NCBI GenBank assembly: GCA_001899805.1
Contig: MKWP01000001.1
Span: forward strand, 253,001-317,000
Source of the DNA: Lysobacterales bacterium 66-474
GTDB taxonomy: Bacteria; Pseudomonadota; Gammaproteobacteria; Xanthomonadales; Rhodanobacteraceae
DNA: 64,000 nucleotides
Reading direction: 5' to 3'
Shown here: positions 9,457 to 55,665 of the stretch, one piece after another
Position numbering within the stretch: position 1 is the first letter of the stretch
Layout: each line of letters begins with the position of its first letter
The notes under the pieces: generated by a model
What the model was told of the DNA's origin: nothing
The model's input: the letters and a program-made list of their open reading frames with translations, nothing else
Database searches by the model: none
Translations under genes and position numbers: made by a program

Positions 9457-9457
9457 C

Positions 9458-10048: not shown

Positions 10049-10085
10049 GGGTTTTCCTGCAGTGTCGGGCGCGCCCGCATAGGGG

Positions 10086-19744: not shown

Positions 19745-19775
19745 CCCCTCATGCGCCACTGCGAAAAAACATCCT

Positions 19776-19967
19776 TCGTCATTCCGGGGCTGCCCGCGCA
19801 TTTTTGCGGGCAGAACCCGACTGCGTTTGCAGGATTGCAAACGCGAACGCCGCAGGCGGTACGTAGCACGAGCGCCATGGATGGCGCGAGTCAATCCAGC
19901 CCTTCGTTTCTGATAGACGAAAAAATGGATTCCGGGTTCCGCGCTTCGCGCGGCCCCGGAATGACGA
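19776..19967 (+). repeat. Palindromic intergenic repeat between narH and narJ
   Basis: A roughly 192-base element is bounded by the inverted repeat TCGTCATTCCGGGGC at 19776-19790 and its complement at 19953-19967. Inside lie further perfect stems: TGCCCGC/GCGGGCA around a T-run (19791-19812) and GCGTTTGC/GCAAACGC about 19823-19846. The layout suits a REP- or MITE-like dispersed repeat that folds as RNA. It has no coding potential. It splits an otherwise tightly packed operon. It could act as an RNA stability or attenuation element that changes the ratio of NarGH to NarJI, but this is inference. Confidence 0.75.
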
Positions 19968-20002
19968 CACAAGGTAGTTCAACACACCGGTCAGACTAGT
20001 CC

Positions 20003-20644: not shown

Positions 20645-20663
20645 TTCGCACGGAGATGCCACG

Positions 20664-21371
20664 ATGACCCTGTCCGTACCCTTGAACTTCTTCCTGTTCG
20701 GCATCTATCCGTACATCTGCCTCGCGGTGCTGCTGCTCGGCAGCCTGGTCCGTTTCGACCGCGAACCGTATTCGTGGAAAAGCGATTCCTCGCAAACCCT
20801 GCAGAAGCGTGAGCTCAAGCTCGGTTCCAACCTGTTCCACTACGGCGTGCTGATCGTGATCCTGGGCCATTTCGTCGGTTTCCTGATGCCCGAACCGCTG
20901 GTGATGTGGCTGATGAGCCCGACCCAGCACCAGTTGCTCGCGATGGTGATCGGCGGCATCGCCGGCACGGTCGCGCTGATCGGCGCTTCGATCCTGATCC
21001 ACCGTCGCCTCGCCTACCGGCGCATCCGCGGCAACAGCCGCAAGTGGGACATCACCATCATCGTCATGCTGTGGTTGCAGCTCGCGCTGGGCGTCGCGAC
21101 CGTGCCGTTGTCGGCGCAGCACATGGATGGCGCGATGTTCGAACGGCTGGTCGCCTACGTGCAGGGCGTGCTGCTGTTCCGCCCGGGCAACGCGGCGTTG
21201 CTGCAGGGCACGCCGTGGGTGTACCAGCTGCACATCCTGCTCGGCTTCACGATCTTCCTGGTGTCGCCGTTCACGCGCATGGTGCACATCTGGAGCGGGG
21301 TCGGTTCCCTCGCCTACCTCGTGCGTCCCTACCAGTTGGTCCGCAAACGCGGCGGATCGGTGAACACATGA
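20664..21371 (+). CDS. narI: Respiratory nitrate reductase gamma subunit (cytochrome b)
   Basis: The protein has 235 residues with five predicted helices. It carries two haems b and oxidises quinol at the periplasmic side. The histidine ligands are seen in HYGVLIVILGHFVGFL and in the later HILLGFTIFLVSPFTRMVH. The ATG at 20664 is twenty bases after the narJ stop, with GGAG upstream. The stop overlaps the next ATG (ATGA), so the isomerase gene downstream is part of the operon. Confidence 0.95.
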   Translation: MTLSVPLNFFLFGIYPYICLAVLLLGSLVRFDREPYSWKSDSSQTLQKRELKLGSNLFHYGVLIVILGHFVGFLMPEPLVMWLMSPTQHQLLAMVIGGIAGTVALIGASILIHRRLAYRRIRGNSRKWDITIIVMLWLQLALGVATVPLSAQHMDGAMFERLVAYVQGVLLFRPGNAALLQGTPWVYQLHILLGFTIFLVSPFTRMVHIWSGVGSLAYLVRPYQLVRKRGGSVNT

Positions 21372-22084
21372 GCATCACCGTCAACGGCATCGCGGTCGAT
21401 CCCGCCGACTGGCCGACCCCGCAACTCGCCGCGGTGCACGAACTGCTGCGCCAGCGCGCCAACGAACTCGGCTTCGCCGCCGAGAACGCCGGTGACGCCG
21501 ACACCGAACGCGCAATCGAACGCACGCTGGCCGAGGAAGTGCGGGTGCCCGAACCGGCCGAGGAAGAATGCCGGCGCTGGTACGACGGCAACGCGAAGCG
21601 CTTCCGCAGCGGCGACCTGGTGTGCGCACGCCACATCCTGTTCCAGGTCACACCGGGCGCACCGGTCCCGGCGATCCGCGGACTCGCGGAAGCGATGCTG
21701 CACGAAATCCGGACCAATCCCGCGCTGTTCGGCGAACGCGCACGCGAACACTCCAACTGCCCCTCCGGCGCCAACGGCGGCAACCTCGGCCAACTGCAGC
21801 GCGGCGAAACCCTGCCGGAGTTCGACAAGGCGATCTTCGACGACGCCTCGATCGGGGTATTGCCCAAGCTCGTCACCACCCGGCATGGCTTCCACATCAT
21901 CTCGGTGGACCAGCGCATCGAGGGCAAGCAACTTCCGTTCGACCTCGTGCGCGACGACGTGGCCGCGGAACTGCGACGCCGCAGCGAGGCGCGCGCGCTG
22001 TCGCAGTACGTGCGCGTGCTGGCCGGCAATGCCGAGATCGAAGGCGTCGACCTGGACGCCGCCGCCTCGCCGCTGGTGCAGTAA
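21368..22084 (+). CDS. Peptidyl-prolyl cis-trans isomerase, parvulin (PpiC/NifM-like)
   Basis: The protein has 238 residues without a signal peptide, so it is cytoplasmic. A helical N-terminal part is followed by a parvulin domain: ARHILFQV, then CPSGANGGNLGQLQRGETLPEFDKAIF, then TRHGFHIISVD. It overlaps narI by four bases. A gene of the same type follows narI in Pseudomonas aeruginosa (PA3871), so a role in maturing nitrate reductase or its cofactor enzymes is likely, though not shown. The NifM comparison reflects similar layout rather than nitrogen fixation, since no nif gene is present. Confidence 0.9.
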   Translation: MSITVNGIAVDPADWPTPQLAAVHELLRQRANELGFAAENAGDADTERAIERTLAEEVRVPEPAEEECRRWYDGNAKRFRSGDLVCARHILFQVTPGAPVPAIRGLAEAMLHEIRTNPALFGERAREHSNCPSGANGGNLGQLQRGETLPEFDKAIFDDASIGVLPKLVTTRHGFHIISVDQRIEGKQLPFDLVRDDVAAELRRRSEARALSQYVRVLAGNAEIEGVDLDAAASPLVQ

Positions 22085-22126
22085 CCCGCGTGCGGTCGGC
22101 GACGCTGGCGCAAGGATAATGACGCC

Positions 22127-28798: not shown

Positions 28799-29044
28799 TC
28801 AGCCTTGCTGGTGGAAATGCTGCACGAAGCGCTTGCGAAAACTCCGATGGCACCCCATGCAACCTTGCTGCACCTTGGCAAAGGCACCAATGACCGCCTC
28901 ACCATCGCCTTGCGCGGCGGCCTCGCCCATGCTCACGGCGGCGGCGTGGACTTGACCGTCGAGCGACGCCTCGTGCGCCGGGGGCGGCGAGCCGCTGGGT
29001 CGATCAGCTTGGTCTTTGTCGTCACGCGATACGAGTGCCGGCAA
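28799..29044 (-). pseudogene. C-terminal fragment of a cytochrome c'-like protein
   Basis: About 80 residues remain, ending QQGCMGCHRSFRKRFVQHF. This is the C-terminal haem helix of cytochrome c' (CxxCH followed by a basic, aromatic helix). The four-helix bundle would need about 60 more residues and a signal peptide upstream. Instead the upstream sequence is the end of the PEGA/SHOCT-type gene. No ATG precedes it; the first start-like codon is a TTG at 29044. Without export the CxxCH would not receive haem, so it is most likely a decayed gene. It is the last reading frame of the haem-barrel operon. Confidence 0.6.
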
Positions 29045-36702: not shown

Positions 36703-37989
36703 TCAGGCAACCTTCTTTTCGGGCTTCAGCCGGCTGATGCCGAAGGCCTTGAGGATGTATTTCTCGTAAGCCGGATCGGCCTTGCCCTTGCGCATCTTGC
36801 GCAGGAAGTATTTCTCGTAGGCCACCTTGGCCAGGTGCACCCACTTGCCGGTCATGGTCTTGGTCACGTTGCGCGGCGGGATCTGCGGCAGCGCCACGAA
36901 GGCGAAACCGCTGTCGCCCATGTCGGCCAGGCACAGCGCGTTCCAGGTCGCGGTGGCCTTGGCGGGCTTGCCGGCCAGTTCGTCGCGCAGGTTCTCGCCG
37001 ATGGCCTCGACCATCGATTCGATCATCAATCCGGTCTTGGGCACGCCGGTCGGCACCGGCGTCGCCTCCAGCGGCGGGATCGCCACGCATACGCCGGCCG
37101 CGAAGATCTCGGGATATTTCGTGTTGCGCTGGTGTTCGTCGATGAAGACGAACCCGCCGGGATTCACCAACCCCTCGACGCCCTGCACCGCCTCGACGCC
37201 GGCGAAGCCCGGGATCAGCATCGAATACGCGAACGGCAGCTCGTGCGTCCGCGCAACCTTGCCGTCGCGATCGAGTTCTTCCAGGTGCACCTTGCCGTCC
37301 TCGACCGAGGTCACGCGACTGTTGGTGATCCACTTGATGTGGCGTTGCCGCAGTTCCGACTCCAGGATGCCTTCGGAATCGCCGATGCCGCCGAGTCCCA
37401 TGTGGCCGATGTAGGGTTCGGACGTGATGAACGTCATCGGCACGCGGTCGCGCAGCTTGCGCCGGCGCAGGTCGGTATCCAGGATCATCGCGAATTCGTA
37501 GGCGGGTCCGAAGCAGCTCGCGCCCTGCACCGCGCCCACCACGATCGGGCCGGGATGGTCCAGGAACTTCTGGTAGGCCTGCCACGCCGTTTCCGCGTGC
37601 GGGCCGGTGCAGATCGACTGGGTGAAACCGTCCGGGCCGCTGCCCGGCACGCGTTCGAAGGCCAGCCGCGGTCCGGTGGTGATCACCAGGTAGTCGTAGT
37701 CGATGCTGTTGCCGTCGACGAGATCGACGCGCCTGGCCTCGGGCACCACCTTTTTTGCCGCGACCGGCACGAAGCGGATGTCGTGGTCTTCGAGCGGGCG
37801 GGTGACGTCCAGCCGGATGTCGCCGGGCTTGCGCCAGCCCGCCGCCACCCACGGATTGGAGGGCGTGAAGTTGAACATCGGCCCTTCGCCGATCACCGTA
37901 ATCGAATGCTGCTTGCCCAGCAGCGAGCGGATTCCATAGGCGGCGCTCATGCCGCCCAATCCCGCACCCAGTATCACGATGGAAGCCAT
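36703..37989 (-). CDS. sqr: Sulfide:quinone oxidoreductase, type I
   Basis: The 428-residue flavoprotein starts with an FAD-binding motif (IVILGAGLGGMSAAYGI). It matches, as recalled, the well-studied Acidithiobacillus ferrooxidans enzyme over its length: PSNPWVAAGW, SICTGPHAE, GASCFGPAYEFAMI, TFITSEPYIGHMGLGG, TWNALCLADMGD. The three catalytic cysteines have equivalents at residue 127, residue 159 and near 355. The enzyme oxidises sulfide to polysulfide and reduces quinone on the periplasmic face. It heads a six-gene operon and is divergent from an ArsR-type regulator. Confidence 0.93.
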   Translation of the reverse strand: MASIVILGAGLGGMSAAYGIRSLLGKQHSITVIGEGPMFNFTPSNPWVAAGWRKPGDIRLDVTRPLEDHDIRFVPVAAKKVVPEARRVDLVDGNSIDYDYLVITTGPRLAFERVPGSGPDGFTQSICTGPHAETAWQAYQKFLDHPGPIVVGAVQGASCFGPAYEFAMILDTDLRRRKLRDRVPMTFITSEPYIGHMGLGGIGDSEGILESELRQRHIKWITNSRVTSVEDGKVHLEELDRDGKVARTHELPFAYSMLIPGFAGVEAVQGVEGLVNPGGFVFIDEHQRNTKYPEIFAAGVCVAIPPLEATPVPTGVPKTGLMIESMVEAIGENLRDELAGKPAKATATWNALCLADMGDSGFAFVALPQIPPRNVTKTMTGKWVHLAKVAYEKYFLRKMRKGKADPAYEKYILKAFGISRLKPEKKVA

Positions 37990-38065
37990 GATCGATCCTC
38001 CGCGTTGTCCGGCATGCGACGCGCCCGATTGCCCAGCCGCACCGGCTTTCATGAATATTAGTTTT

Positions 38066-38104
38066 ATCTAATTTAGATGAAGGTTAATTAGCAAACGGTA
38101 TAAT
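38066..38104 (+). promoter_or_regulatory. Palindromic operator and -10 between sqr and the ArsR regulator
   Basis: A perfect AT-rich inverted repeat, ATCTAA-T-TTAGAT, lies at 38066-38078 in the divergent region, and TATAAT at 38099-38104 serves the regulator. AT-rich palindromes are the usual target of BigR/SqrR-type repressors. Binding here would cover both divergent promoters. Confidence 0.72.
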
Positions 38105-38141
38105 GTCAACCGTTTCCCGAGAACGGAAGGCGTGCCAGACC

Positions 38142-38489
38142 ATGAACCGCAAGGCCAACTTCGATCCCGACGCGATGCAGGCCAACGCGGACGACGCCGC
38201 GCGCCTGCTGAGGGTGCTGGCCAACGAACAGCGCTTGCGCATCCTGTGCCTGCTCGTGGTCGGCGAACTCACCGTCGGCCAGATCAACGACCGGTTGCCC
38301 GAACTCAGCCAATCGGCGTTGTCCCAGCACCTCGCCAGGCTGCGCGACGAAAACATGGTGTCCACCCGGCGCGAGGCGCAAAGCGTGTGGTATTCGCTGC
38401 CCGAAGGCCCGGCGCAGGCGATCATCGCCACCCTGCACGGCATCTATTGCGCGCCGCGAAAATCCGTGCGGCGCGCGTCGCGCGGGTGA
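38142..38489 (+). CDS. ArsR-family repressor, SqrR/BigR-like persulfide sensor
   Basis: The 115-residue winged-helix regulator has the ArsR core ANEQRLRILCLLVVGELTVGQIND and LSQSALSQHLARLRDENMVSTRR. Cysteines are present at position 36 (helix 2) and position 103 (YCAPRK, helix 5), 67 residues apart, nearly the same as the redox pair of BigR and SqrR (66 apart). Those regulators sense reactive sulfur through a disulfide or tetrasulfide link. The start at 38142 lies 38 bases past the TATAAT; a start at 38103 would be inside the -10. Confidence 0.85.
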   Translation: MNRKANFDPDAMQANADDAARLLRVLANEQRLRILCLLVVGELTVGQINDRLPELSQSALSQHLARLRDENMVSTRREAQSVWYSLPEGPAQAIIATLHGIYCAPRKSVRRASRG

Positions 38490-39087: not shown

Positions 39088-40491
39088 TCACACGCTTCGC
39101 GCGTAGCGCGGCTGCAGCGGTTGCGTTTCGCGCGACAGATACGCATCGAAACACATCGCCACGTTCCGGAGCAAAAGCCGGCCGCGCGAAGTGACGCGCA
39201 GCGTTTCCGGATCCAGTTCCACCAGCCCGTCGGTTTCGAGTTGCCGCAGGCGTTCCAGTTCCTCCGCGAAACAAGCGGCGAACACGATCCCGTGGCGCTC
39301 GCCGAACGCGTGCATGTCCAGCACGCCGTGGCACATCAATTCGTTGATCGCGGCGCGCCGGACCACGTCGTCGGCATCGAGCGCGATGCCGCGCGCCACT
39401 GGCAGGCGGCCATTGTCCAGCGCCAGGTAATAGCCGGGCAGGTCGCGCGCGTTCTGGCTGTAGCTGTCGCCGATGCGGCCGATCGCGCTCATGCCCAACC
39501 CGACGATGTCGCAGTCGCCCTGCGTGGAGTAGCCCTGGAAATTCCGCTGCAGCGTGCCCTGCCTTTGCGCCCGCACCAGTTCATCATCGGGACGCGCGAA
39601 GTGGTCCATGCCGATGTACACGTAGCCCGCACCGCAAAGCTTTTCCACCGCAAGCCCGAACAGGCGCAGCCGCATGGCGGCATCCGGCAAGTCGGCGGCG
39701 TCGATCTGCCGCTGCGCCTTGAACAGGCGCGGCAGGTGCGCGTAGCCGTACACGGCCACGCGATCCGGCGCGAGGCCGAGCACCTGATCAAGCGTCTGGC
39801 CAAACCCGGCCAGGGTCTGCCGGGGCAGGCCATAGATCAAGTCGAGGTTGACCGAATCGAAATCGGCCGCACGCGCGGCCTCGAGCACCTCGAAGGTCTG
39901 CGCCACCGTCTGCACGCGATTGACCGCCGCCTGCACGACGGGATCGAAATCCTGCACGCCGATCGAAATGCGGTTGAAGCCCAGTGCGCCGAGCTCGCAC
40001 ACGTAATCGAAATCGGCGAAGCGCGGATCCACCTCGATGCCTGCCTCGACCCCGCCGCGATCCTTCGCGAACCGGAAATGCTCTCCCAGTTCGCGCATCA
40101 GATCGCCGAGGCGCGGGATGTCCAGGAAGTTCGGCGTGCCGCCGCCGAAGTGCAGTTGCCGCACGGTGCGCCCGGCATCGAACAACGGCGCCGTCATCGC
40201 GATTTCGCGCTGCAGGTATTCGAGGTACTGGTCGGCCCTGCGCACGTCGCGCGTGATCACGCGCGTGCAGCCGCAATAGAAGCACGGGCTCCAGCAGAAA
40301 GGCATGTGCACGTACAGCGACAGCGGCGCACCGGTCTCGTTCGAAGCCACGGCGGCCTCGCGCAGTTGCGCTTCGCCGAATCCGGCATGGAACTGCGGCG
40401 CGGTCGGATAACTGGTGTAGCGCGGCGCCGGCACGTCGTAGCGCGCCATCAGCGAGGGATCGAATTCGACGGACCCGGGGATCGTGTGCAT
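39088..40491 (-). CDS. hemN: Oxygen-independent coproporphyrinogen III oxidase
   Basis: The 467-residue radical-SAM enzyme has the cluster motif in PFCWSPCFYCGCTRV (C-x3-C-x2-C plus the extra Cys), the GGGTPNFLD motif and the HFARPDDEL block. It decarboxylates coproporphyrinogen III without oxygen, so that haem can be made anaerobically. The N-terminus aligns with E. coli HemN from the first residues, which supports the ATG at 40491. That ATG falls at the predicted start of the FNR-type promoter, so the transcript may lack a leader. Confidence 0.95.
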   Translation of the reverse strand: MHTIPGSVEFDPSLMARYDVPAPRYTSYPTAPQFHAGFGEAQLREAAVASNETGAPLSLYVHMPFCWSPCFYCGCTRVITRDVRRADQYLEYLQREIAMTAPLFDAGRTVRQLHFGGGTPNFLDIPRLGDLMRELGEHFRFAKDRGGVEAGIEVDPRFADFDYVCELGALGFNRISIGVQDFDPVVQAAVNRVQTVAQTFEVLEAARAADFDSVNLDLIYGLPRQTLAGFGQTLDQVLGLAPDRVAVYGYAHLPRLFKAQRQIDAADLPDAAMRLRLFGLAVEKLCGAGYVYIGMDHFARPDDELVRAQRQGTLQRNFQGYSTQGDCDIVGLGMSAIGRIGDSYSQNARDLPGYYLALDNGRLPVARGIALDADDVVRRAAINELMCHGVLDMHAFGERHGIVFAACFAEELERLRQLETDGLVELDPETLRVTSRGRLLLRNVAMCFDAYLSRETQPLQPRYARSV

Positions 40492-40497
40492 GCCGCC

Positions 40498-40538
40498 AGT
40501 CTGCGCGTCGACGGGCCCGGGGCCTTGACCAGAATCAA
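40498..40538 (-). promoter_or_regulatory. FNR-type promoter for hemN
   Basis: The box TTGAC-CAGA-ATCAA is at 40525-40538 and CAGACT at 40503 down to 40498. Predicted start is near 40491, the A of the hemN ATG. Confidence 0.75.
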
Positions 40539-40569: not shown

Positions 40570-40695
40570 TCAGTCGTCGCTGGCGACCGCCGCCCAGTCG
40601 CGTTCGTCGTCCGCGTGCACTTCCAGCCACATCGCGTTGAGGATGCCGAAGCAACACGCGAGGCCCACGCCGAGCAACCATACGAAGTACCACAT
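40570..40695 (-). CDS. cydX: CydX-type small subunit of a cytochrome bd-like complex
   Basis: A 41-residue membrane peptide, MWYFVWLLGVGLACCFGILN followed by AMWLEVHADDERDW. This matches the CydX consensus (W-Y-F-x-W-x-L-G-x-G-x-A-x-x-F-G-I-L-N-A-x-W). CydX stabilises cytochrome bd oxidase. A GGGAGG ribosome site stands before the ATG. It is 31 bases downstream of the CydA-like gene. No cydB gene is found beside it. Confidence 0.9.
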   Translation of the reverse strand: MWYFVWLLGVGLACCFGILNAMWLEVHADDERDWAAVASDD

Positions 40696-40726
40696 CGCGC
40701 AACCTCCCGTTCCGATCGCTGACGGT

Positions 40727-42274
40727 TCAATATCTTCCGGCCTTGCCCGAATCCACCGGCCAGAATTTCAATCCTTCGGGGCCGCGGCGGACAAGCCGCA
40801 CCAGCAGGATCGCGCCTGCCACAAGGAGTCCCGTGATGGTGAGACACGCCACGGTGCCGATGATCATGTCCGCGCGGCTGGTGTGGATCTGCGTCACCGG
40901 CAACACGCCGTCGATGATCCATGGACCGCGTCCGGCTTCGCTCACGATCCAGCCCAGCGCCCCTGCGATCCACGGCACCGGCAAGCTCCATGCCGCCACG
41001 CGCAGGAACCAGCGTCTGTCCAGCCTGCGCTTCGACGCCAGCCAGAACGCGCAGCCGAACAGCACGATGGCATACACGCCGAGCAACGCCATGCCGCGGA
41101 AGGTCCAGAACAGCAGCGGCACGTCCGGGATCGTGTCCCGCGCGGCGGCGGCCATCAGCGCGTCGCTTGCATGCGCGGGATGCGCGGTGTGCCGCAGCAG
41201 CAGCAATCCATAGCCGAGATTGGACGTGTCTTCGAGGTCGAAGACGAGGTCGCCCGCGCCACCCGGATTGGCCCACGGCGTGTCCATCACGGTGAATGCC
41301 GCGACACCGTCGTGGATGCGCGCCATGTTCACCGCCTCGAGTTCATCGAGGCCAGGGACCGCCTTCCTCCACGAATGGGTGGCACCCAGCCCCAGCGCCC
41401 ACGGCACGTCCACCGCCGCGCGGGTGATGCGCTGGCGACTGTCCGGGATCCCGAAAATCGTGAAGGGCGCCGGCGCGGCCTGCGTATGCCACTCGGCGGC
41501 GATCGCGGCGATCTGCATCTGCTGGCCGGACGACTCGGCATAGCCGCGGTGGTCGCCGAGCAGCGCCAGCGAGAGCGCGGCGGCCAATCCGAAGCTTGCC
41601 GCCACGGTCAACGACCGGCGCGCGATCTGCATGTTGCGGCGACGCAGCAGATACCACGCCGAAATCGAAAGCACCAGGGTTGCCGCGGTGAGATAGCACG
41701 CGCCGATCAGGTGCACGAACCTCGACTGCGCGGCGGAGTTCAGCAGCACCGCCGGCACGTCGTAGATCCAGACTTGCAGGCTGCCTGCATCGAGGTCCAC
41801 GCCCGCCGGGTTGTCCAGCAAACCGAATCCGATCGCGACCTTCAGCACCACGAACCCGAACAACGGCACCCACAGCCAGGTGACCAGCAGGTGTTGCACC
41901 CTGCCGAGGCTCCACCAATCGCGGAACCAGTTCCAGACCAGCAATCCGAAGGCGAGCGCGAACGGCGCGAACAACACGATCAACCACGGGCCGGGCATGC
42001 CGTGGATGTGCCTGGTGAATCGGCCCGGATCCGCGGCGTACAGGATCGCCAGCACGATCGAACCGATTGCCCACATCAGCAGGACGACCCCGAACAGCCT
42101 GCCCCAGAAGCGGGCGATCTGTTTCCAGATTTCCCGCCCGGTCATCACGTACACGCTCTCGACGATCGCGATGATCGGCGGCAATCCCGCCGCCAACGGC
42201 AGCAGGGTCGCGCAGTACAAGGCCACGAGGTGCGGCCACAGTGCTGAAACCTGGAATCCGGACGGCGGGATCAT
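40727..42274 (-). CDS. Divergent CydA-like cytochrome bd subunit I without CydB partner
   Basis: The 515-residue protein is colinear with E. coli CydA. Haem b558 residues are kept (His188 in QSRFVHLIG; the Met in FWTFRGMALLG with its Arg), the Q-loop EWHTQAAPAPFTIFGIPD is kept, and the Glu in GWIVSEAGRGPW is kept. But His19 of E. coli, in the AMYHF motif, is Cys21 (ALYCATLL); Glu99 becomes Leu101 and Glu107 becomes Phe109, and the GxxxEFQFG block is lost. It lies between a universal stress protein gene and cydX. Function as an oxygen reductase is therefore doubtful. Quinol-linked haem b558 electron transfer is plausible. Confidence 0.82.
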   Translation of the reverse strand: MIPPSGFQVSALWPHLVALYCATLLPLAAGLPPIIAIVESVYVMTGREIWKQIARFWGRLFGVVLLMWAIGSIVLAILYAADPGRFTRHIHGMPGPWLIVLFAPFALAFGLLVWNWFRDWWSLGRVQHLLVTWLWVPLFGFVVLKVAIGFGLLDNPAGVDLDAGSLQVWIYDVPAVLLNSAAQSRFVHLIGACYLTAATLVLSISAWYLLRRRNMQIARRSLTVAASFGLAAALSLALLGDHRGYAESSGQQMQIAAIAAEWHTQAAPAPFTIFGIPDSRQRITRAAVDVPWALGLGATHSWRKAVPGLDELEAVNMARIHDGVAAFTVMDTPWANPGGAGDLVFDLEDTSNLGYGLLLLRHTAHPAHASDALMAAAARDTIPDVPLLFWTFRGMALLGVYAIVLFGCAFWLASKRRLDRRWFLRVAAWSLPVPWIAGALGWIVSEAGRGPWIIDGVLPVTQIHTSRADMIIGTVACLTITGLLVAGAILLVRLVRRGPEGLKFWPVDSGKAGRY

Positions 42275-42318: not shown

Positions 42319-42756
42319 TCAGCGCACCACCAGCACGCAAATGCCGGTGTGGTTCAAGACTTGCTGCGTCTGGCTGCCCAACACCAGCCTTGCAATGCCG
42401 CGCCGGCCATGCGACGCCATCACGATCAAGTCGCAACGGGCTCGTTGCGCCGCCGTCACGATCGCTTCGTGGGGGTGCTCGCTTCGTTTCACGAACGTGT
42501 CGCACGGGACCCCCGCGAGCTCGGCTTCACGCTGCAATGGCGCGAACAACTTGTCCGCGTGCGCCTGCGCAAGAACCCGCAGTTCCGCGGGCGGCGGCTC
42601 CAGCAATTCCTCGACGATGCCGGCGCGATTGAATTCCATCATCGCGTGAAACCCCGTCACCCGGGCTCCGATTTTCCGCGCGAGGGCGACGCCCACTTCG
42701 ATCGCGCGGCGCGAACCCGGGTCGTCGTCGATCGGAATCAGGATATGGGTAAACAT
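42319..42756 (-). CDS. Universal stress protein (UspA family)
   Basis: The 145-residue protein starts MFTHILIPIDDDPGSRRAIE and has the ATP-binding signature ASHGRRGIARLVLGSQTQQVL. It lies second in the BON-Usp-cydA-like-cydX series on the minus strand, 68 bases after the BON gene and 44 before the CydA-like gene. The single-domain layout is like the Usp at 4727 but the two differ widely in sequence. Confidence 0.93.
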   Translation of the reverse strand: MFTHILIPIDDDPGSRRAIEVGVALARKIGARVTGFHAMMEFNRAGIVEELLEPPPAELRVLAQAHADKLFAPLQREAELAGVPCDTFVKRSEHPHEAIVTAAQRARCDLIVMASHGRRGIARLVLGSQTQQVLNHTGICVLVVR

Positions 42757-42824: not shown

Positions 42825-43478
42825 TCAGGCCGCGATCGTGGTCTGGTCCACCACGTTGCGAACCCCGGGGGCGCGCCACGCGGCCAGGCGCGCCGCTTTC
42901 CGCTCGCTCGAGGAATCCAGTTGCCCGCAAAGGGTCACGGTGCCGCCATTCACCAGCACCGCAATGTCCCTGGCGCGCCGGAAGGATCGCCTGCGCAGCG
43001 CCGCTTCGATCTGGCGCGTGACGTCGCGAGGTTCGACCCCCGGCTTGATTTCAATCAGGTTGACCAGGCCCGTGATGCCCACGAGGTTGCGCATGGCGGA
43101 TTCCGCGGCGCGGCTCTGGTACTCCCACTCCACGCCGCCGGACAACACCACCCACCCGTGATTGACCGCCACCTTCACCTTTCGCGGCGGGATCGACGCG
43201 TTCCACGCCAGCACGTTGCGCGCAGCCCTGGCGATGTCGTCGTCCGATCGCCTGTCGATGCCCGGCAACTCGACATCGAGGTCGGCAATCACGCCGTCCA
43301 CGCCATCCACACGCCACGCGGCGGCTTGCGCGTGGCACTTCTGCGCGTAGCTGCCCACCAGGCCGGAGAGTGTCACGAGGCCGGCGTGCGCCTCCACGTC
43401 GATCCGGCTCGCGTCAACGGACGGATCCCAGTCCAATTCCGCCGCCACGTCACGCTGAAGTTCCCGATCGGTTTTCAT
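42825..43478 (-). CDS. Protein with three BON domains
   Basis: The 217-residue product has the same three-repeat design as the protein at 3407. The start MKTDRELQRDVAAELDWDPSVDA matches MNDKELRQLVVDELEYEPSIDA, and the second repeat has WVVLSGGVEWEYQ against WITLSGSVKWNYQ. There is no signal peptide. AGGAGAG stands before the ATG. An FNR-type promoter lies just upstream, and the gene may be the first of a transcript through Usp, the CydA-like gene and cydX. Confidence 0.88.
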   Translation of the reverse strand: MKTDRELQRDVAAELDWDPSVDASRIDVEAHAGLVTLSGLVGSYAQKCHAQAAAWRVDGVDGVIADLDVELPGIDRRSDDDIARAARNVLAWNASIPPRKVKVAVNHGWVVLSGGVEWEYQSRAAESAMRNLVGITGLVNLIEIKPGVEPRDVTRQIEAALRRRSFRRARDIAVLVNGGTVTLCGQLDSSSERKAARLAAWRAPGVRNVVDQTTIAA

Positions 43479-43501
43479 CCGCACTCTCCTCGCATGGGTC
43501 A

Positions 43502-43542
43502 ACTATCGATTTTCGGCGCGGCCACGATGTGATTCAGGTCAA
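43502..43542 (-). promoter_or_regulatory. FNR-type promoter for BON-usp-cydA-like-cydX
   Basis: The box GTGAT-TCAG-GTCAA at 43529-43542 and GATAGT (43507 down to 43502), which agrees with TATAAT at four positions. Predicted start is about 43495, only 17 bases before the ATG, with the ribosome site inside that leader. Confidence 0.72.
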
Positions 43543-47910: not shown

Positions 47911-48633
47911 TCATTGGATCGTGCGGGGCGTGCCGGCGCAGGCGCTCAGCTTCGGGATGTCCAGCAGTTTCACTTCACGCCGCAGCACCGAAATGTATTC
48001 GAGCTGTTCGAGGTGCGACAGCGCCCGGCTCACGGTCTCGTGCTTCAGTGCGAGGAAACTCGCGATGTCGGCGCGACCCATGCGCAGGATGAAGTGGCGG
48101 GCGCTGAACCCCAGGCGCGCGAGGCGCGATGCAAGGTCGAGCAGGAACGCCGCCACGCGCTGTTCGGCGGGCAGGGTACCGATGGTCAGCATCCAGGACC
48201 GGTCGCGGCGGATTTCCTCGGCCAGCGCCGAAGACAACCGTATTTGCAGTTCGGGGACCTGCAGGCACGCGTTCAGCACCGGCGGGTAAGGCAGTTCCCA
48301 TATCTGCGAATCCTCCAGCGCGACGGCATCGCAGGTGTGGACCGCCAGGCCGATGGATTCGACGCCCAGCAGGTCGCCGCGCATCCGGAAACCGGTCACC
48401 TGCTCGCGGCCGTCCTCCGACAACTCGCAGGTCTTCAGGAACCCGGCGTGTACCAGGTACAGGGCGTGGAAGGGCTGCCCGTTGCGATACAGGTACTGGC
48501 CGGCGGCGACCTTCCTGCGCGTCACCACCATGTGCCGCTGCAATTCCTCGATGTCGAGCTCGGGCGGTTGTTCGAGCGCCGTCTGTTGCGGATTCGACAT
48601 TTCGAGCGTGGACGGTGCGAGCGGCGTATCCAT
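47911..48633 (-). CDS. CRP/FNR-family transcription regulator lacking the FNR cluster cysteines
   Basis: The 240-residue protein has a cyclic-nucleotide-fold sensor domain (AGQYLYRNGQPFHALYLVHAGFLKTCELSEDGREQVTGF, cf. FNR) and a C-terminal helix-turn-helix with the recognition helix HETVSRALSHLE. E-x-x-S-R is the same reading head that FNR uses on TTGAT. The first 35 residues hold no cysteine, so the FNR [4Fe-4S] cluster cannot form; only Cys in LVHAGFLKTC, HTCDAVAL, NACLQ and LSACAG are present. DNR-like haem or another redox signal is possible. The gene is convergent with the hybrid kinase, and its start at 48633 has GGAG upstream. Confidence 0.88.
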   Translation of the reverse strand: MDTPLAPSTLEMSNPQQTALEQPPELDIEELQRHMVVTRRKVAAGQYLYRNGQPFHALYLVHAGFLKTCELSEDGREQVTGFRMRGDLLGVESIGLAVHTCDAVALEDSQIWELPYPPVLNACLQVPELQIRLSSALAEEIRRDRSWMLTIGTLPAEQRVAAFLLDLASRLARLGFSARHFILRMGRADIASFLALKHETVSRALSHLEQLEYISVLRREVKLLDIPKLSACAGTPRTIQ

Positions 48634-48754
48634 GGCGGGGCTCCGGTCGTGATTGTGTTCACCGCCAAGATGCGACGCGATCGTCACCACCGGATGTCCG
48701 CCCGGCAACGGCGTGTAACGGTGTGTAACAGCGAGCCCTCGACCACGCACGGAA

Positions 48755-48795
48755 TTGACGAGGATCAGATTTCCACCATGGCCAGTACGGATAGT
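48755..48795 (+). promoter_or_regulatory. FNR-type promoter for the RNR-like gene
   Basis: The box TTGAC-GAGG-ATCAG at 48755-48768 has GATAGT at 48790-48795, the hexamer seen at the BON promoter. Predicted start near 48802 shifts the likely start codon of the gene to 48823. The direct repeat GTGTAACG/GTGTGTAACA at 48712-48730 lies beside it and may belong to the regulator's own promoter. Confidence 0.68.
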
Positions 48796-48822
48796 GGGGA
48801 CGACCCACGGCGCCCGGCTGCA

Positions 48823-49899
48823 ATGACCGACCTGCTCAGACCCTCCCCATTCATCGACCTTGCCGCCGTCGAGGCCTGGGATGCCTGGTTCCGGTGGCGC
48901 GAGCAAGCCGATTTGCGCGATTTTTCCATCGAGGACACCTGGCGGCGCGTGGCAACCGCGCTGGCGTCGGTCGAGGCAGGCGGCGAGATCGCGACGTGGC
49001 GGATGCGATTCACGGATGCGTTTGCAGCCTGGCGGTTGTTGCCCGACGAATGCCTGCTCGCGGACGCCGGCACCGGCCGCACCGAGTGTCGCAACGGAAC
49101 GCTGCACGCCTCCGTGAATGCGGCGGCTTTCGTGTCCGCGGGCCAGGCCGCGGGCGCAACGATCGATCTCGTTGCCCTGGGCGATTGCGCGGCACTGGCG
49201 GTGCGCGCGCTGGACAACGCCGCGCTGCTGGCAGGGATCGCCTCGCCGTGTCTGCGCATCGGCATGCTGGGCGTCGCCGACGCCTTGGCGCTGCTGGACC
49301 TGCGCTATGACAGCGAACCGGGACGCGCGCAGGCGGCCGCCATGGCGAAAGCGCTCGCCGAGGGATGCCTGCGCGGCAACATCGCGCTCGCGGCCGAGCG
49401 TGGAGTTTGCGGGTGCGGGGCGGGTGCTTCGCTTGCACGTGCAGGGCGGCGCGTGTTGCCGGAGGAACTCCTGCGCGATGCCGCCCGCCGCGGCGTGCGC
49501 CACGCGCAACTCACCGCCATCACCTCGCAGCCACGCCTTGCGTTGCTGGCCAACAACGTGGCGGATGCCGTCGATCCGCTGTGGGGCATGGACCACGCAC
49601 ACGTGATCGCTGCCTCGGATGGGCATCGCACCTTGCGCTCGTCCGGATATGCGCTGAACATCCTGCACGCGTGGGGCCGCGAACCCGGCGCTGCCCCCAC
49701 GCCGGCGCGTCCGTCGTGGATGGCGCAGATCGCGATGCGCGCCGCCCTCCAGCCATGGATGGACGAGCCCATCGACTACCCGTTGCTGGCGACGGATCCC
49801 CTGGATGATTCGCAACGGCTCGAAGCGCGAAAACTCGCCGCGACCTACGGATTGGGAGAGCCGGCCTGGCGGGACGAGGTCGCGCCGCAGCCGCTGTGA
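48823..49899 (+). CDS. Ribonucleotide-reductase-like protein without catalytic core
   Basis: The 358-residue protein resembles parts of class II/I large ribonucleotide reductase subunits: an N-terminal AEAW-like helix (DTWRRVATALASVE), then CLRIGMLGVADALALLDLRYDSEPGRA and RRGVRHAQLTAITSQPRLALLANNVADAVDPLWG, which recall the RNR barrel segments. It is less than half the usual length. I see no N-x-C-x-E catalytic motif and no paired C-terminal cysteines, so reduction of ribonucleotides is unlikely. It has an FNR-type promoter. The ATG at 48823 is used since the predicted transcript starts after the ATG at 48778. It is convergent with the phosphoketolase gene. Confidence 0.6.
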   Translation: MTDLLRPSPFIDLAAVEAWDAWFRWREQADLRDFSIEDTWRRVATALASVEAGGEIATWRMRFTDAFAAWRLLPDECLLADAGTGRTECRNGTLHASVNAAAFVSAGQAAGATIDLVALGDCAALAVRALDNAALLAGIASPCLRIGMLGVADALALLDLRYDSEPGRAQAAAMAKALAEGCLRGNIALAAERGVCGCGAGASLARAGRRVLPEELLRDAARRGVRHAQLTAITSQPRLALLANNVADAVDPLWGMDHAHVIAASDGHRTLRSSGYALNILHAWGREPGAAPTPARPSWMAQIAMRAALQPWMDEPIDYPLLATDPLDDSQRLEARKLAATYGLGEPAWRDEVAPQPL

Positions 49900-49912
49900 T
49901 CGACCCGCGTGC

Positions 49913-52315
49913 TCAACGGAGCACGCCGGCATCCGTCGATGACCACGACCACTCGCGCACTTCGGGCAGGTCCACGCCTTCCGCGCGGATGTAGTGCCAG
50001 TGCTCGGCGAGCTTGTCCTCGAGCTTCTGCTTGAGGTGGATCGTCCTCGCAGCCAGTCCCGGCACGCGCCCGATCACGTCCAGCACCAGGTGGAAGCGAT
50101 CGAGGTCGTTCAGGACCGTCATGTCGAAGGGCGTGGTGATCGTGCCCTCCTCCTTGTAGCCGTGCACGTGGAAATTCCCGTGGTTGCGGCGCCGGTAGGT
50201 CAGGCGGTGGATGAGGGTCGGATAGCCGTGGTACGCGAAGATCACGGGTCGATCCAGCGTGAACAGGCGATCGAAGTCGTCGTCGCCGAGGCCGTGCGGA
50301 TGCACGCTGTCCGGTTGCAGTTTCATCAGGTCCACCACGTTGACCACGCGCAGCTTCAGGTCCGGCAGGTAGTGGCGAAGGATCGAAACGGCGGCCAGCG
50401 TTTCCAGCGTCGGCACGTCGCCCGCGCAGGCCATGACCACATCCGGTTCGCCGTTCCGGTCGCTGCCGGCCCACGGCCAGACCCCGATGCCGCGCGCGCA
50501 ATGCGCGGCCGCGGCGTCGATGTCCAGCCACTGCGGCGCGGGATGCTTGCCCGCGACCACGACGTTGACGTAATGCCGGCTGCGCAGGCAATGGTCCATC
50601 ACCGACAACAGGCAGTTGGCGTCCGGCGGCAGGTACACGCGCACGATTTCCGCCTTCTTGTTGACCACGTGGTCGATGAACCCGGGGTCCTGGTGGGTGA
50701 AACCGTTGTGGTCCTGCCGCCACACGTGCGAGGCCAGCAGGTAGTTGAGCGAAGCGATGGGGCGCCGCCACGGCAGTTCCGCGGTCATCTTCAGCCACTT
50801 GGCGTGCTGGTTGAACATCGAATCCACGATGTGCACGAACGCTTCGTAGCAGTTGAACAAGCCGTGGCGGCCGGTCAACAGATAACCCTCCAGCCAGCCC
50901 TGGCATTGATGTTCACTCAACATTTCCAGCACGCGTCCGTCGCGGCCCAGGAACTCGTCAGTCGCGCGGATCGGCAGCTGCCACTGGCGGCAGGTCACGT
51001 CGAACACCGCCTCCAGGCCGTTCGAGACGGTTTCATCGGGACCGAAGATCCGGAAATTGCGCTGGTCGTGGTTGGCACGCAGCACTTCGCGAAGGAACCG
51101 GCCGAACACATGCGTGTCGCCGACGCCGGCGACGCCCGGCGCGGGCACTGCCACGGCATGCGCACGGAAATCCGGCATCCGCAGATCGCGCAGCAGCAGG
51201 CCGCCGTTCGCATGCGGGTTCGCGCTCATGCGCCGCGCGCCGGGCGGCGCCAGCGCGCGCCACTCGGCGCGCAGGCTTCCCCTCGCGTTGAACAATTCGT
51301 CCGGCCGGTAGCTCCGCAACCAGTCTTCCAGTTGCGCGAGATGTTGCGGCGGCGAGGACGCCGATACCTGCAGCGGCACCTGGTGCGCGCGGAAGGTGCC
51401 CTCCACCGGCTTGCCGTCGACGATCTTCGGACCCGTCCAGCCCTTCGGCGATTCGAGCACGATCATCGGCCACGACGGCCGCGTGGACAGCCGCCCCCGG
51501 CGCGCGCTGCGCCGGATGCGCAGGATGTCGGCCACCACCGTGTCCAGCACTTCCGCCATCTGGCGGTGCATCGAAACGGGCTGGCTGCCGCTGACGAAGT
51601 ACGGTTTCCAGCCGCAGCCGCGCAGGAATTGCGTGAGTTCGCGCGACGTGATCCGGGCCGGCACGGCGGGATTGGCGATCTTGTACCCGTTCAAATGCAG
51701 GATCGGCAGCACCGCGCCGTCGTGCGCCGGATCGAGGAACTTGTTGGAATGCCAGGACGTGGCCAGCGGGCCGGTTTCGGCCTCGCCGTCGCCGACCACG
51801 CAGGCGGCGATCAGGTCCGGATTGTCAAGCACGGCGCCGAACCCGTGGCTCAGCGAATAGCCGAGTTCGCCGCCTTCGTGGATGGAGCCCGGGCATTCGG
51901 GCGTGGCGTGGCTGCCAATGCCGCCCGGAAACGAGAATTGCTTGAACAGCCGTTGCAGGCCGGCTTCGTCACCACCGATCTCCGGATACACCTCGCTGTA
52001 GGTCCCCTCCAGGTACGCATTGGCGACCACCGCCGGCCCGCCGTGGCCCGGACCGGAGATGTAGATCATGTCGAGATCGTGCTGCAGGATCGCGCGGTTG
52101 AGGTGGGCGTAAATGAAGTTCTGCCCGGGCGTGGTGCCCCAGTGCCCCACCAGCGTGCGCTTGACGTGTTCCAGCTTCAGCGGCTCGCGCAGCAGCGGAT
52201 TGGCGCGGAGATAAATCTGGCCGACCGAAAGGTAGTTTGCCGCACGCCACCATGCATCGACGCCATGCAGGATCGGGGGATCATCCGTCTCGCGGCCGGC
52301 ATCGGTTTTCATCAT
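49913..52315 (-). CDS. xfp: Phosphoketolase (xylulose/fructose 6-phosphate)
   Basis: The 800-residue thiamin-diphosphate enzyme has [37 protein letters not shown] and [12 protein letters not shown] at the start, then [21 protein letters not shown] (thiamin-binding GDGE), and [11 protein letters not shown] later. It splits xylulose 5-phosphate or fructose 6-phosphate with phosphate to acetyl phosphate. The adhP-like gene stops 57 bases upstream on the same strand, so they may be cotranscribed. The acetyl phosphate made would feed acetate kinase, encoded nearby. Confidence 0.95.
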
Positions 52316-52371
52316 TCGTTTCTCATGAGCGAACAACCATGGCTTGCGCTCGCGCACCGGCTGGCCGTGCA

Positions 52372-53412
52372 TTACTGCCCATCCAGTTTCAGCACGACGC
52401 GCCCCGTCACGCGGCCTGCCTTCAGCTCGGCGAACACGCTGTCGACATCCTCGAGTGCCGCTGTTTGCGTATGGGCACGCACCTTGCCCGCCGCGGCAAA
52501 CGCGATCGCCTCGGCCAGGTCCTGGCGCGTGCCGACGATCGATCCCCGCACGGTGATCCGCTTCAACACGACCTCGAAAATCGGCGTCTCGAAGGTCCCC
52601 GGCGGCAATCCGACCAGGCTGACGGTGCCCCTGCGCCGCGCCATCTGCAACGCCTGTCCGAAAGCCGGGCGCGACACCGCCGTGACCAGCACGCCATGCG
52701 CGCCACCGCCGGTCGCATCGATCACGCGTTGTGCGGCGTTGTCCAGGCTCGCGTTCACCACGATTTCGGCGCCATCCGTTCGCGCCAGCGCCAGCTTGTC
52801 CTCGGCCACGTCGAGCGCCACCACGCGCAGCCCCATCGCGGTCGCGTACTGCACCGCGAGATGCCCGAGCCCGCCGATGCCGGAAATCGCGATCCACTGG
52901 CCCGGGCGCGCCCCGGTTTCCTTGATTCCCTTGTACGTGGTCACGCCTGCGCACAGGATCGGCGCCATGGCCACCGGATCGGAATGTTCCGGCAGCCGCG
53001 CCACGTACGCGGCATTTCCGAGTGCGTATTCGGCCATGCATCCGTTCACGCTGTAGCCGCTGTTGTGCTGGGCTTCGCAAAGGGTTTCCCATCCGGTGAT
53101 GCAGTATTCGCAATGGCCGCAGGCATCGTGCAGCCAGGCGATGCCGACCAGATCGCCCTCTTCCAGGTGCGAGACCCCCGCGCCGAGCGCGGCGACCCGG
53201 CCCACGCCTTCATGGCCGGGGATGAACGGCACGGCGGGCCTGACCGGCCAGTCGCCGTCGGCGGCGTGCAGGTCGGTATGGCACACGCCCGATGCGGCAA
53301 TGCGCACCAGCACTTTGCCGGGACCAGGCCTTGGGACCGGCCATTCCTCGATCGACAATGGCCGTCCGAAGTCACGCACAACCGCGGCGCGCATGGTCTG
53401 CGGAATCGTCAT
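52372..53412 (-). CDS. adhP: Zinc-dependent alcohol dehydrogenase (AdhP type)
   Basis: The 346-residue MDR-family enzyme binds catalytic zinc by [12 protein letters not shown] (Cys), GHEGVG (His-Glu) and the later Cys in [13 protein letters not shown]. The structural zinc site is [18 protein letters not shown] binding is by [14 protein letters not shown]. It reduces acetaldehyde to ethanol or runs the reverse. AGGA precedes the ATG at 53412. Its promoter is an FNR-type box shared with the divergent pta gene. Confidence 0.93.
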
Positions 53413-53450
53413 GGCGAATGTCCTGCGCACGCCCGAGCGGGCACGGCCCC

Positions 53451-53518
53451 ATGTCAGCACGCACGCGCCGGCCCCTTGTGATCCCGATCAAGATCACCAC
53501 ACATGGAGCATGCACGAT
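53451..53518. promoter_or_regulatory. Bidirectional FNR-type promoter for adhP-xfp and pta-ackA
   Basis: The box GTGAT-CCCG-ATCAA is at 53478-53491. On the minus strand TGACAT (53456 down to 53451) and on the plus strand CACGAT (53513-53518) stand at the same class II distance. Predicted starts are near 53444 and 53525. The plus -10 is the weaker one. Confidence 0.7.
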
Positions 53519-53545
53519 GTCCGCATCCCAACGAGGACCGCCGCC

Positions 53546-54493
53546 TTGCCAGCCGACGCAAGCGTAGAAAACCGCCCGTCACCCTTCGAAGCCCTGCTGA
53601 CAGCCGCCGAGGTGCTCGAACCGATTCCGGTCGCCGTCGTGCATCCCTGCGATGCGCCGTCGCTGCAGGCGGCGCTGGAAGCCGCCCGTTCGGGATTGAT
53701 CCGGCCGGTCATGGTGGGACCACGGGCAAAGATCCTGCGCGCGGCGGAATCGGCAGGACTGGATATCGGCGATTGCCGCATCGAAGACACGGCGCACAGC
53801 CACGCCGCGGCCGCCCGCGCCGTCGGGCTCGCACGCACTGGTGAAGTCGCCGCCCTGATGAAGGGCGCGTTGCACACCGACGAACTGATGGCCGAGGTGG
53901 TCGACCACGAACACGGCCTGCGCACCGAGCGGCGCGTCAGCCACGTGTTTGCACTGGACGTTCCGCGCTACCCGAAGCTGCTGTTGCTGACCGACGGTGC
54001 GCTCAACATCACGCCCGACTTGCTGGACAAGCGCGACATCGTCCAGAACGCCATCGACTTCGCGCACGCGATCGGCATCGCCATGCCGCAGGTGGCGATC
54101 CTGTCGGCGGTGGAAACCGTGAACCCGCGCATCGTCTCGACCATCGACGCCGCGGCATTGTGCAAGATGCGGGATCGCGGCCAGATCAGCGGCGGCGCAT
54201 TGGAGGGGCCGCTGGCCTTCGACAACGCGGTGTCGGTCGCGGCGGCCTCGATCAAGGGCATCGAATCGCCGGTCGCCGGGAACGCCGACATCCTGGTGGT
54301 GCCGGACCTGATGACCGGCAACATGCTGGCCAAGCAGATGATCTACCTGGCCGGCGCCGCCTCGGCGGGCATCGTGCTGGGTGCGCGCGTTCCGATCGCG
54401 TTGACCAGCCGTGCGGATACGGTGCGCGCGCGGGTGATGTCCTGCGCGCTGGCGCGGCTGTTCGCGAACCGGGCCGCGCTCGCGCCGTCATGA
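53546..54493 (+). CDS. pta: Phosphate acetyl/butyryltransferase
   Basis: About 315 residues of the PTA_PTB family: short, without the DRTGG and N-terminal domains of long Pta. Markers are VAVVHPCDAPSLQAALEAA, TDGALNITPDLLDKRDIVQNAI, ALEGPLAFDNAVSVAAA, and NADILVVPDLMTGNMLAKQMIYL. It interconverts acetyl phosphate and acetyl-CoA. The open frame starts at an ATG at 53510, but the promoter predicts a start near 53525 and AGGA precedes a TTG at 53546, which I prefer; it is not certain. The stop overlaps ackA (ATGA). Confidence 0.88.
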   Translation: MPADASVENRPSPFEALLTAAEVLEPIPVAVVHPCDAPSLQAALEAARSGLIRPVMVGPRAKILRAAESAGLDIGDCRIEDTAHSHAAAARAVGLARTGEVAALMKGALHTDELMAEVVDHEHGLRTERRVSHVFALDVPRYPKLLLLTDGALNITPDLLDKRDIVQNAIDFAHAIGIAMPQVAILSAVETVNPRIVSTIDAAALCKMRDRGQISGGALEGPLAFDNAVSVAAASIKGIESPVAGNADILVVPDLMTGNMLAKQMIYLAGAASAGIVLGARVPIALTSRADTVRARVMSCALARLFANRAALAPS

Positions 54494-55665
54494 ACGCCGC
54501 CATCCTGTCGCTCAACATCGGTTCGTCCAGCATCAAGTTGGCATTGTTCGATGCCGTCACGCTCGAACCGATCCTGCGCGGCAACGTCACGGATGTGGGA
54601 CGCGACGCGCGTGCCTCCTTCACGTCGCACGGGCAAACCACCGTCTCGGAACGACCCGCTGCCGCGGACATCGGCGAGGCGGTCCGCTGGCTGCTGGCCG
54701 AGGTGCGCGAGCGGCATCCGGAGATGCGCCTTGCCGCGGTGGGTCATCGCGTCGTGCACGGCGGCACGCGTTTCGACAAACCGGTTCGCGTCGATGCGGA
54801 AGTCCTGGCCGAACTCGAAGCGCTGGCGGTGCTCGCGCCCGCGCACCAGCCGGCCGAGATCGCGCTGATCAGAAACTTGCAGGAACTGTTGCCGGATGTA
54901 CCGCAGATCGCCTGCTTCGATACCGCGTTCCATCGTACGCAACCGAAGCTGTCGCAATGGTTCGCGCTGCCGCGCGCATTGAGTGAATCGGGCATCGTGC
55001 GCATCGGATTCCACGGCCTGTCGTACGAATACATCGCCAGTGTGTTGCCGCAAATCGCTGTCCCGCATCCATACGGAAAAACCGTTGTCGCGCATCTTGG
55101 CCACGGCGCCAGCGTGTGCGCAATGCGCAACCTGCGCAGCGTTTCCACGTCCATGGGTTTCACCCCGCTGGACGGCCTGATGATGGGCACGCGTTGTGGC
55201 ACGATCGATCCAGGCGTGCTGCTGCACCTGCAGCAGCAACGCGGCATGAGCGCGCAGGATGTGGCGGACCTCCTGGGCAACCGCTCCGGCTTGCTGGGCG
55301 TGTCCGGGATCAGCGACGACGTGCGCGTACTCGAAGCCAGCGGAGATCCCCGCGCGCGCGAAGCGCTGGAGATGTTCGCCGAACGCGCCGCGACCGCGAT
55401 CGCGGCCCAGTGCGTGGCGCTGGAGGGCCTGGACGCGCTGGTGTTCACCGGCGGGATCGGCGAACACGCCGAAAACACGCGCAAGCGCATCGGCGAACGC
55501 CTGCGTTGGCTCGGCATCGTGCTCGACGACGCACGCAATGCGAGCGACGCAACCCGCATCAGCAGCGACGCTGCCCGGGTCCAGGTGTTCGTGATCCCGA
55601 CCGACGAGGAGACGGTGATCGCGCGGGCTGCCGCGAGGCTGCTCGGGTCGCCATCGGAACGTTGA
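54490..55665 (+). CDS. ackA: Acetate kinase
   Basis: The 391-residue kinase has the ASKHA signature LSLNIGSSSIKLALFD, GHRVVHGGTRF, the second signature GFHGLSYEYIA, VVAHLGHGASVCA, and MMGTRCGTIDPG before the C-terminal FTGGIGEHAENTR. It makes ATP and acetate from acetyl phosphate, which gives the phosphoketolase path its energy yield. It overlaps pta by four bases. Confidence 0.95.
   Translation: MNAAILSLNIGSSSIKLALFDAVTLEPILRGNVTDVGRDARASFTSHGQTTVSERPAAADIGEAVRWLLAEVRERHPEMRLAAVGHRVVHGGTRFDKPVRVDAEVLAELEALAVLAPAHQPAEIALIRNLQELLPDVPQIACFDTAFHRTQPKLSQWFALPRALSESGIVRIGFHGLSYEYIASVLPQIAVPHPYGKTVVAHLGHGASVCAMRNLRSVSTSMGFTPLDGLMMGTRCGTIDPGVLLHLQQQRGMSAQDVADLLGNRSGLLGVSGISDDVRVLEASGDPRAREALEMFAERAATAIAAQCVALEGLDALVFTGGIGEHAENTRKRIGERLRWLGIVLDDARNASDATRISSDAARVQVFVIPTDEETVIARAAARLLGSPSER

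Follow-up and report, generated by a model that had tools for sequence, protein, structure and literature searches.

CydA is regarded as one subunit of an oxygen reductase, acting together with CydB, and the locus described here raises the question of what a CydA-like protein might do when it is encoded with CydX, without CydB and without the residues of the usual oxygen site. The locus lies in a 64,000-nt stretch of DNA, the whole of which is referred to here as the window. An earlier note on the window had placed a CydA-like and CydX pair at 40570-42274, with a Usp gene and hemN as neighbours. The coordinates proved right, with both genes on the minus strand, and both neighbours were confirmed by family matches. 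The features around the pair are given below.

39088..40491, minus strand: hemN, oxygen-independent coproporphyrinogen III oxidase (family match)
40525..40538, no strand assigned: FNR/Anr-like box with 1 mismatch, between cydX and hemN
40570..40695, minus strand: cydX, 41 aa (TIGR02106 match)
40727..42274, minus strand: CydA-like gene, 515 aa (ORF translation, PF01654 match and alignment to E. coli CydA)
42319..42756, minus strand: usp, with the start taken at the internal ATG at 42756 (MFTHILIPIDDD...); the longest frame runs from 42930
42825..43502, minus strand: BON-domain protein with three BON stretches (family match)
43045..43058, no strand assigned: FNR/Anr-like box with 1 mismatch, within the BON gene, ∼780 bp before the CydA-like gene

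The CydA-like protein matched PF01654 at 261.2 bits (cut-off, 26.2) and aligned with E. coli CydA (the 6rko_A sequence) over residues 9 to 503 at 327.7 bits; its best NCBIfam model gave 337.7 bits, far under the cut-off of 968 for that model. The CydX of the window scored 60.1 bits against TIGR02106, above the curated cut-off of 31.6. It has the same N terminus, MWYF, as E. coli CydX, which was also its best relative of solved structure. The genes are closely spaced, with usp upstream and ending 44 nt before the start of the CydA-like gene, and with 31 nt between the stop of the CydA-like gene and cydX. Judged from sequence, as is the function discussed below, the pair appears to be a variant of the cytochrome bd family.

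The same CydA-like and CydX pair was searched for in other genomes, as the earlier note had proposed. With a profile of six copies from the genus, the CydA-like gene was found in 9 of 233 genomes of the family at 755 to 1,070 bits, every other match scoring ≤479, and cydX was present in the eight loci that are intact. Six of the nine carriers belong to the genus of the window, where carriage is patchy (6/16 genomes, including the window's own), and three to a second genus, Rhodanobacter. In a sample of 369 genomes from the class, the window's own genome alone matched at E ≤1e-150; the 21 genomes listed from this sample included two family members, the window's own and G029. A wider contig search gave 80 loci among the matches listed, one of which was the variant (L044) and 79 of which were canonical at ten checked positions; more distant members may fall outside this list. 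A CydB match accompanied 76 of these 79 listed canonical loci, and the other three had none in the DNA around the locus.

For the tree and the site counts, 43 canonical CydA rows were used (38 of the 79 listed loci, E. coli CydA and four copies from the genus), and more remote CydA from the genus and family, at ∼24 to 32% identity, were left out. The eight intact variant copies formed one clade with a support of 100/100, on a stem that greatly exceeds the clade's internal branches in length; two of the variant rows failed the composition test. The tree had no outgroup and was midpoint rooted for drawing only, and it therefore does not show the canonical group of origin. The long Q-loop, the presence of CydX and the best matches together suggest that the source was probably a long-Q-loop CydA, of the class termed qOR1 in the scheme quoted by PMC13189123, and hence that the variant probably does not lie outside the CydA lineage. 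The earlier proposal of a new member of the bd superfamily is thus borne out as to a distinct clade on a long stem and probably not as to a place outside the CydA lineage.

The absence of cydB beside the pair, which the earlier note had observed for the window, extended to the whole genome. A PF02322 (CydB) search of the window's own assembly, which is 99.96% complete (3.73 Mb, 16 contigs), returned no match, and a PF01654 profile search returned a single one, the CydA-like gene itself; a second cydAB elsewhere, for which a search had been advised, was therefore not found as either subunit. Both searches gave matches in 10 of 14 control genomes. Eight of the nine carrier genomes were without CydB above the cut-off: five of the six in the genus (G006 among the five) and the three of the second genus, none of which gave any CydB match. 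The carriers G014 and G252 are assembled in one and two contigs, respectively, and several others are drafts, so that single absences of CydB are weaker there. The ninth carrier, G004, possesses a canonical cydAB pair at another place in the genome; the CydB of this pair, encoded in an operon with a canonical CydA of its own, might in principle serve the variant CydA as well.

To follow the residues of the oxygen site, the eight intact variant copies were aligned with the 43 canonical rows, and positions are given in E. coli numbering. In the bd-II structure, His19 is the haem d ligand and Glu445 the haem b595 ligand (PMC8585947). His19, Glu99 and Glu107 were present in 43/43 canonical rows and in 0/8 variants, and Glu74 and Glu257 were likewise lost in all eight. 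The variants carry Cys (five copies), Ala (two) or Gly (one) in the His19 column. The window has Cys21 there, on which two alignments agree, as the earlier note had read it. Because this column lacked His in all eight intact copies, a sequencing or assembly error at Cys21 was ruled out. For Glu99 and Glu107, which the note had given as Leu and Phe, the loss itself stands, with no Glu at either column in the slower alignment of the eight copies, but the exact residues depend on the alignment (Leu and Phe in one, Val and Ala in another), and the exact TM3 columns are therefore uncertain. The GxxxEFQFG block is gone in the alignment to E. coli CydA, as described.

Other parts of the haem environment were retained. 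All eight variants keep the haem b558 ligands His186 and Met393 (H188 and M395 in the window) and the haem b595 ligand Glu445 (E446 in the window), in agreement with the earlier reading that the b558 ligands and the Glu of the GWxxxE motif are kept, and also Arg391, Trp441 and Arg448. The accompanying description of the protein as being without the high-spin-haem residues was too strong in view of Glu445, but it holds for the haem d ligand His19 and for the acidic oxygen-site residues. With these lost in 8/8 copies, the usual O2 site very probably cannot form, as had been supposed. The alternative that the active-site His and Glu had moved to nearby positions found no displaced Glu: among the invariant Glu of the eight variants in residues 1 to 180, only E39, which is canonical too, and E48, which is Glu in 19/43 canonical rows, were seen. 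One new His, H91 (window 42002-42004; Gly89 in E. coli), is invariant in 8/8 variants in the loop before TM3, and it could be a candidate new ligand or metal site. This loop falls in residues 83 to 98, one of five segments with pLDDT below 50 in a structure model of the CydA-like protein (mean pLDDT, 73.6). The best structural matches of the model were CydA chains, with 7ose_A on top at a TMq of 0.86; as 30 of the 32 alignment rows behind the model were canonical CydA, the CydA-like fold match is partly built in and confirms little.

The losses were not evenly spread. Of 164 near-invariant canonical sites, 77 were kept in all eight variants, 65 were lost in all and 22 were mixed. Sites kept in all eight amounted to 9/56 at residues 51 to 160 versus 49/66 at residues 183 to 455, with a Fisher p of 7e-11 that is descriptive, since the region bounds were picked after the regional counts had been seen. 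Four divergent canonical CydA from the same genus served as a control. Scored on sites near-invariant among the remaining 39 canonical rows, they kept 51/59 and 58/75 in the two regions; they have diverged less than the variants have, with a mean identity to the others of 51% versus 39%. Thirty of the 65 lost sites were fixed to one new residue in 8/8 variants, including Gly66 to Trp, Gly112 to Trp and Gly89 to His. We read this as a rebuilding of the oxygen-site half (TM1 to TM4), with the haem b558 and Q-loop half kept, and not as plain decay; the two new Trp residues may fill the space of haem d.

The Q-loop aligned to E. coli CydA without a gap in the full-length alignment, and 16/20 of its near-invariant sites were kept. 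In canonical CydA, the quinol pocket includes Asp239, Tyr243 and Arg298, while Lys252 and Glu257 stabilise the Q-loop; Glu257 helps to hold the loop, and its mutation lowers activity (PMC13189123). Asp239 and Tyr243 are kept in 8/8 variants. Arg298 is replaced by His in 8/8, a residue found there also in 5/43 canonical rows. Lys252 has become Gln in the window and Arg in the other seven variants, and Glu257 has become Ala in all eight. The claim that the protein keeps its Q-loop is accordingly sound for the length of the loop and for most of its near-invariant sites but not for Lys252 and Glu257, and the fixed changes at these two residues could mean that quinol turnover is weak or absent.

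The surroundings of the gene were compared across the carriers. Usp lies directly before the CydA-like gene in 9/9 carrier loci, and cydX directly after it in the eight intact loci; near canonical cydA, a Usp match was seen in 1/79 listed loci, some of which are on short contigs. The BON protein stands beside Usp also in L034, L035 and L036/L138 (one genome) and was not called there in L033, L037, L135, L136 or L137. Similarly, hemN follows cydX in L033 and L035, and in L037 a fragment of it does so at the contig edge; it was not called after cydX in the remaining carrier loci. A response regulator and a sensor kinase were also found around the CydA-like gene.

FNR/Anr-like boxes were frequent, with 38 in the 64,000-nt window at ≤2 mismatches versus 8.7 expected and a maximum of 15 in 100 shuffles. 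This enrichment makes the region look like one large low-oxygen island. A 1-mismatch box ∼780 bp before the CydA-like gene recurs in L035, L135 and L136, and L034 has a perfect box 1,264 bp before it; L033, L037 and L138 had no box of 0 or 1 mismatch near these upstream places (∼780 or 1,264 bp). A box of 1 or 2 mismatches between cydX and hemN, or at an equal distance, was present in the window, L033, L035, L037 and L138. No FNR-like box of 0 or 1 mismatch was found at one position common to all carriers. Control of the operon by FNR/Anr is thus suggested by its motifs. Elsewhere in the window, positions 47911-55665 encode a regulator of the CRP/FNR family, a phosphoketolase and a phosphotransacetylase-type protein, with acetate kinase and alcohol dehydrogenase recognised by eye, and were taken as a fermentative energy set adjoining Usp genes. 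Positions 14433-22100 hold a nitrate reductase region with NarG, a NarH embedded in a longer frame, a frame resembling NarJ and a preceding MFS transporter, all but NarG called by eye.

Taken at its broadest, the explanation that we consider probable is that CydA-CydX is a non-oxidase, quinol-binding haem-b558 module, formerly half of a long-Q-loop cytochrome bd, set in an FNR/Anr-type hypoxia island. An ancestral long-Q-loop cytochrome bd would have lost both CydB and the haem d site at which oxygen is reduced, leaving the quinol and haem-b558 half together with CydX. When oxygen falls, an FNR/Anr regulator would turn the operon on. CydA-CydX would then bind quinol under the Q-loop, so that b558 became reduced, along with a second haem if Glu445 holds one, and the electrons would not be passed to O2.

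As to what follows, the pair may report the state of the quinol pool, with Usp as its cytoplasmic partner, instead of acting as a high-flux enzyme; we put the chance of this somewhat below even. It is preferred because of the fixed loss of residues for quinol turnover and because Usp is the only neighbour besides cydX in all intact carriers. Against a sensor, the retention of Trp441, Glu445 and Arg448 is what a redox chain would require and fits a redox enzyme better; moreover, the one line that would tie Usp to the variant CydA is gene order. A further step, that the pair constitutes a new functional class of the bd superfamily in which a CydB-free, non-oxidase CydA-CydX senses the quinol pool via b558 and signals with the adjacent Usp in low oxygen, is put forward only tentatively and is less likely than the reporter role itself.

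Within the same broad reading, a finer alternative is that CydA-CydX is an electron relay that oxidises quinol and delivers the electrons to some acceptor protein by way of b558 and possibly also of a b595-type haem at Glu445. This is possible but on balance doubtful. It would account for the retention in 8/8 variants of the b558 ligands, Asp239, Tyr243, Arg391, Trp441, Glu445 and Arg448, and narG is found inside the window and a COX1-family frame of NO-reductase size near the gene in G004 and G014. However, no gene for an acceptor regularly accompanies the pair, Usp alone being adjacent in 9/9 loci, and Glu257, the mutation of which lowers activity (PMC13189123), is Ala throughout. Nor is narG shared among the genus carriers: it was complete in 3/6, partial in one and absent in two, and it was complete in 2/10 non-carriers (5/16 in total). 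Nitrate respiration as a link to the variant CydA was therefore unsupported, narG not being common to all genus carriers.

A second enzymatic alternative, which we regard as unlikely, is that a b595-type haem at Glu445, exposed by the loss of haem d, binds or reduces a small molecule such as H2O2 or NO with quinol as the donor. The b595 ligand is kept in 8/8 variants, and E. coli cytochrome bd has quinol peroxidase activity (PMC4899803). COX1-family frames of ∼785 aa, which by their length we guess to be quinol NO reductases, occur upstream of the CydA-like gene in L034 and L035, the matches ending 1.4 kb from the gene in G014 and 3.0 kb from it in G004. On the other hand, the pocket may be filled by the Trp residues at Gly66 and Gly112, and COX1-family frames of 767 to 800 aa were found also in 4/10 non-carriers of the genus and, in the window's own genome, on another contig. 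Since frames of that size occur in non-carriers, NO reductase was rejected as a link to the variant CydA.

It is less likely still that the pair is a decaying cydABX relic that folds but has no role. The long stem of the clade and its patchy presence (6/16 in the genus) would suit such a relic, as would the one broken copy among nine: in G248 (L137), the gene at 9394-10887, on the opposite strand, has two in-frame stops, and a six-frame scan of 20 kb for a MWYF-type start revealed no CydX, although a diverged CydX would be missed by it. In G248 the CydA-like gene and cydX thus seem to have been lost together; eight other species carry intact copies. Against decay, dN/dS in the intact copies, obtained by a simple counting method on pairs that are not independent, was well below 1, at 0.16 to 0.34 in 27/28 pairs; the last pair, whose members are almost identical, gave 0.06. 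Where hemN had been measured as well, in three species pairs, the values for the CydA-like gene were 0.26, 0.21 and 0.23 versus 0.29, 0.23 and 0.25 for hemN. Canonical CydA gave 0.15 to 0.29 in the same genus (6 pairs) and 0.06 to 0.34 in a named set (21 pairs), and CydX gave 0.03 to 0.10 in the three pairs that could be computed out of six from four loci. The CydA-like gene is thus under purifying selection, with a dN/dS like that of hemN. The 30 newly fixed residues, the 77/164 canonical sites unchanged in all eight copies and the conserved gene order and spacing also speak against a relic. Finally, an ordinary cytochrome bd with its CydB elsewhere or too diverged to detect is very improbable, as the sub-threshold PF02322 match in G006 (21.2 bits over 89 positions, against a cut-off of 35.6) and the CydB of G004, which has its own CydA, are outweighed by the lack of CydB above the cut-off in 8/9 carriers, two of them in one or two contigs, and by the loss of the haem d ligand and acidic oxygen-site residues in 8/8 copies.

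The module favoured here resembles cytochrome bd-I (CydA-CydB-CydX, qOR1) in CydA sequence, long Q-loop, b558 ligands and a CydX starting with MWYF but differs in having Usp directly upstream and in being without CydB, His19, Glu74, Glu99, Glu107, Lys252 and Glu257. Archaeal CydAA' is likewise a bd-type complex without CydB, but there CydA retains its catalytic residues and has a paralogue of itself as partner, whereas the only CydA found in the window's genome is without them and, as the single PF01654 match, has no paralogue to pair with. PMC4325964 reports that, a few orphans aside, cydX was neither gained nor lost independently of cydAB; as in these orphans, cydX here lies outside a cydAB operon, but it stays with an altered cydA and no cydB. 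Low-oxygen gene sets of Burkholderia cenocepacia (the lxa locus and Anr) share Usp genes, low-oxygen activation and an Anr-type box (PMC9104464); the setting alone is similar, the CydA there being an ordinary bd subunit with CydB. In the titles and abstract openings of the open-access literature searched, no description of a CydB-less CydA with these losses was found. If the broad reading is true, the quinol, b558 and CydX half of CydA has a use of its own, remaining under selection while the oxygen half is rebuilt, and the protein would offer a natural separation of function, with which parts of CydA could be assigned to quinol binding and CydX contact or to oxygen chemistry and CydB contact.

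Some further genes in the window were recorded. At 36703-38489, an SQR-like flavoprotein and an ArsR-type regulator lie side by side; they match type III sulfide quinone reductase and BigR, respectively, below the cut-offs. An SQR-like flavoprotein is also found near the variant in L033, L034 and L035, and ∼5 kb from canonical cydAB in L041. A short frame with a CxxCH motif at 28799-29044 is perhaps a piece of cytochrome c'.
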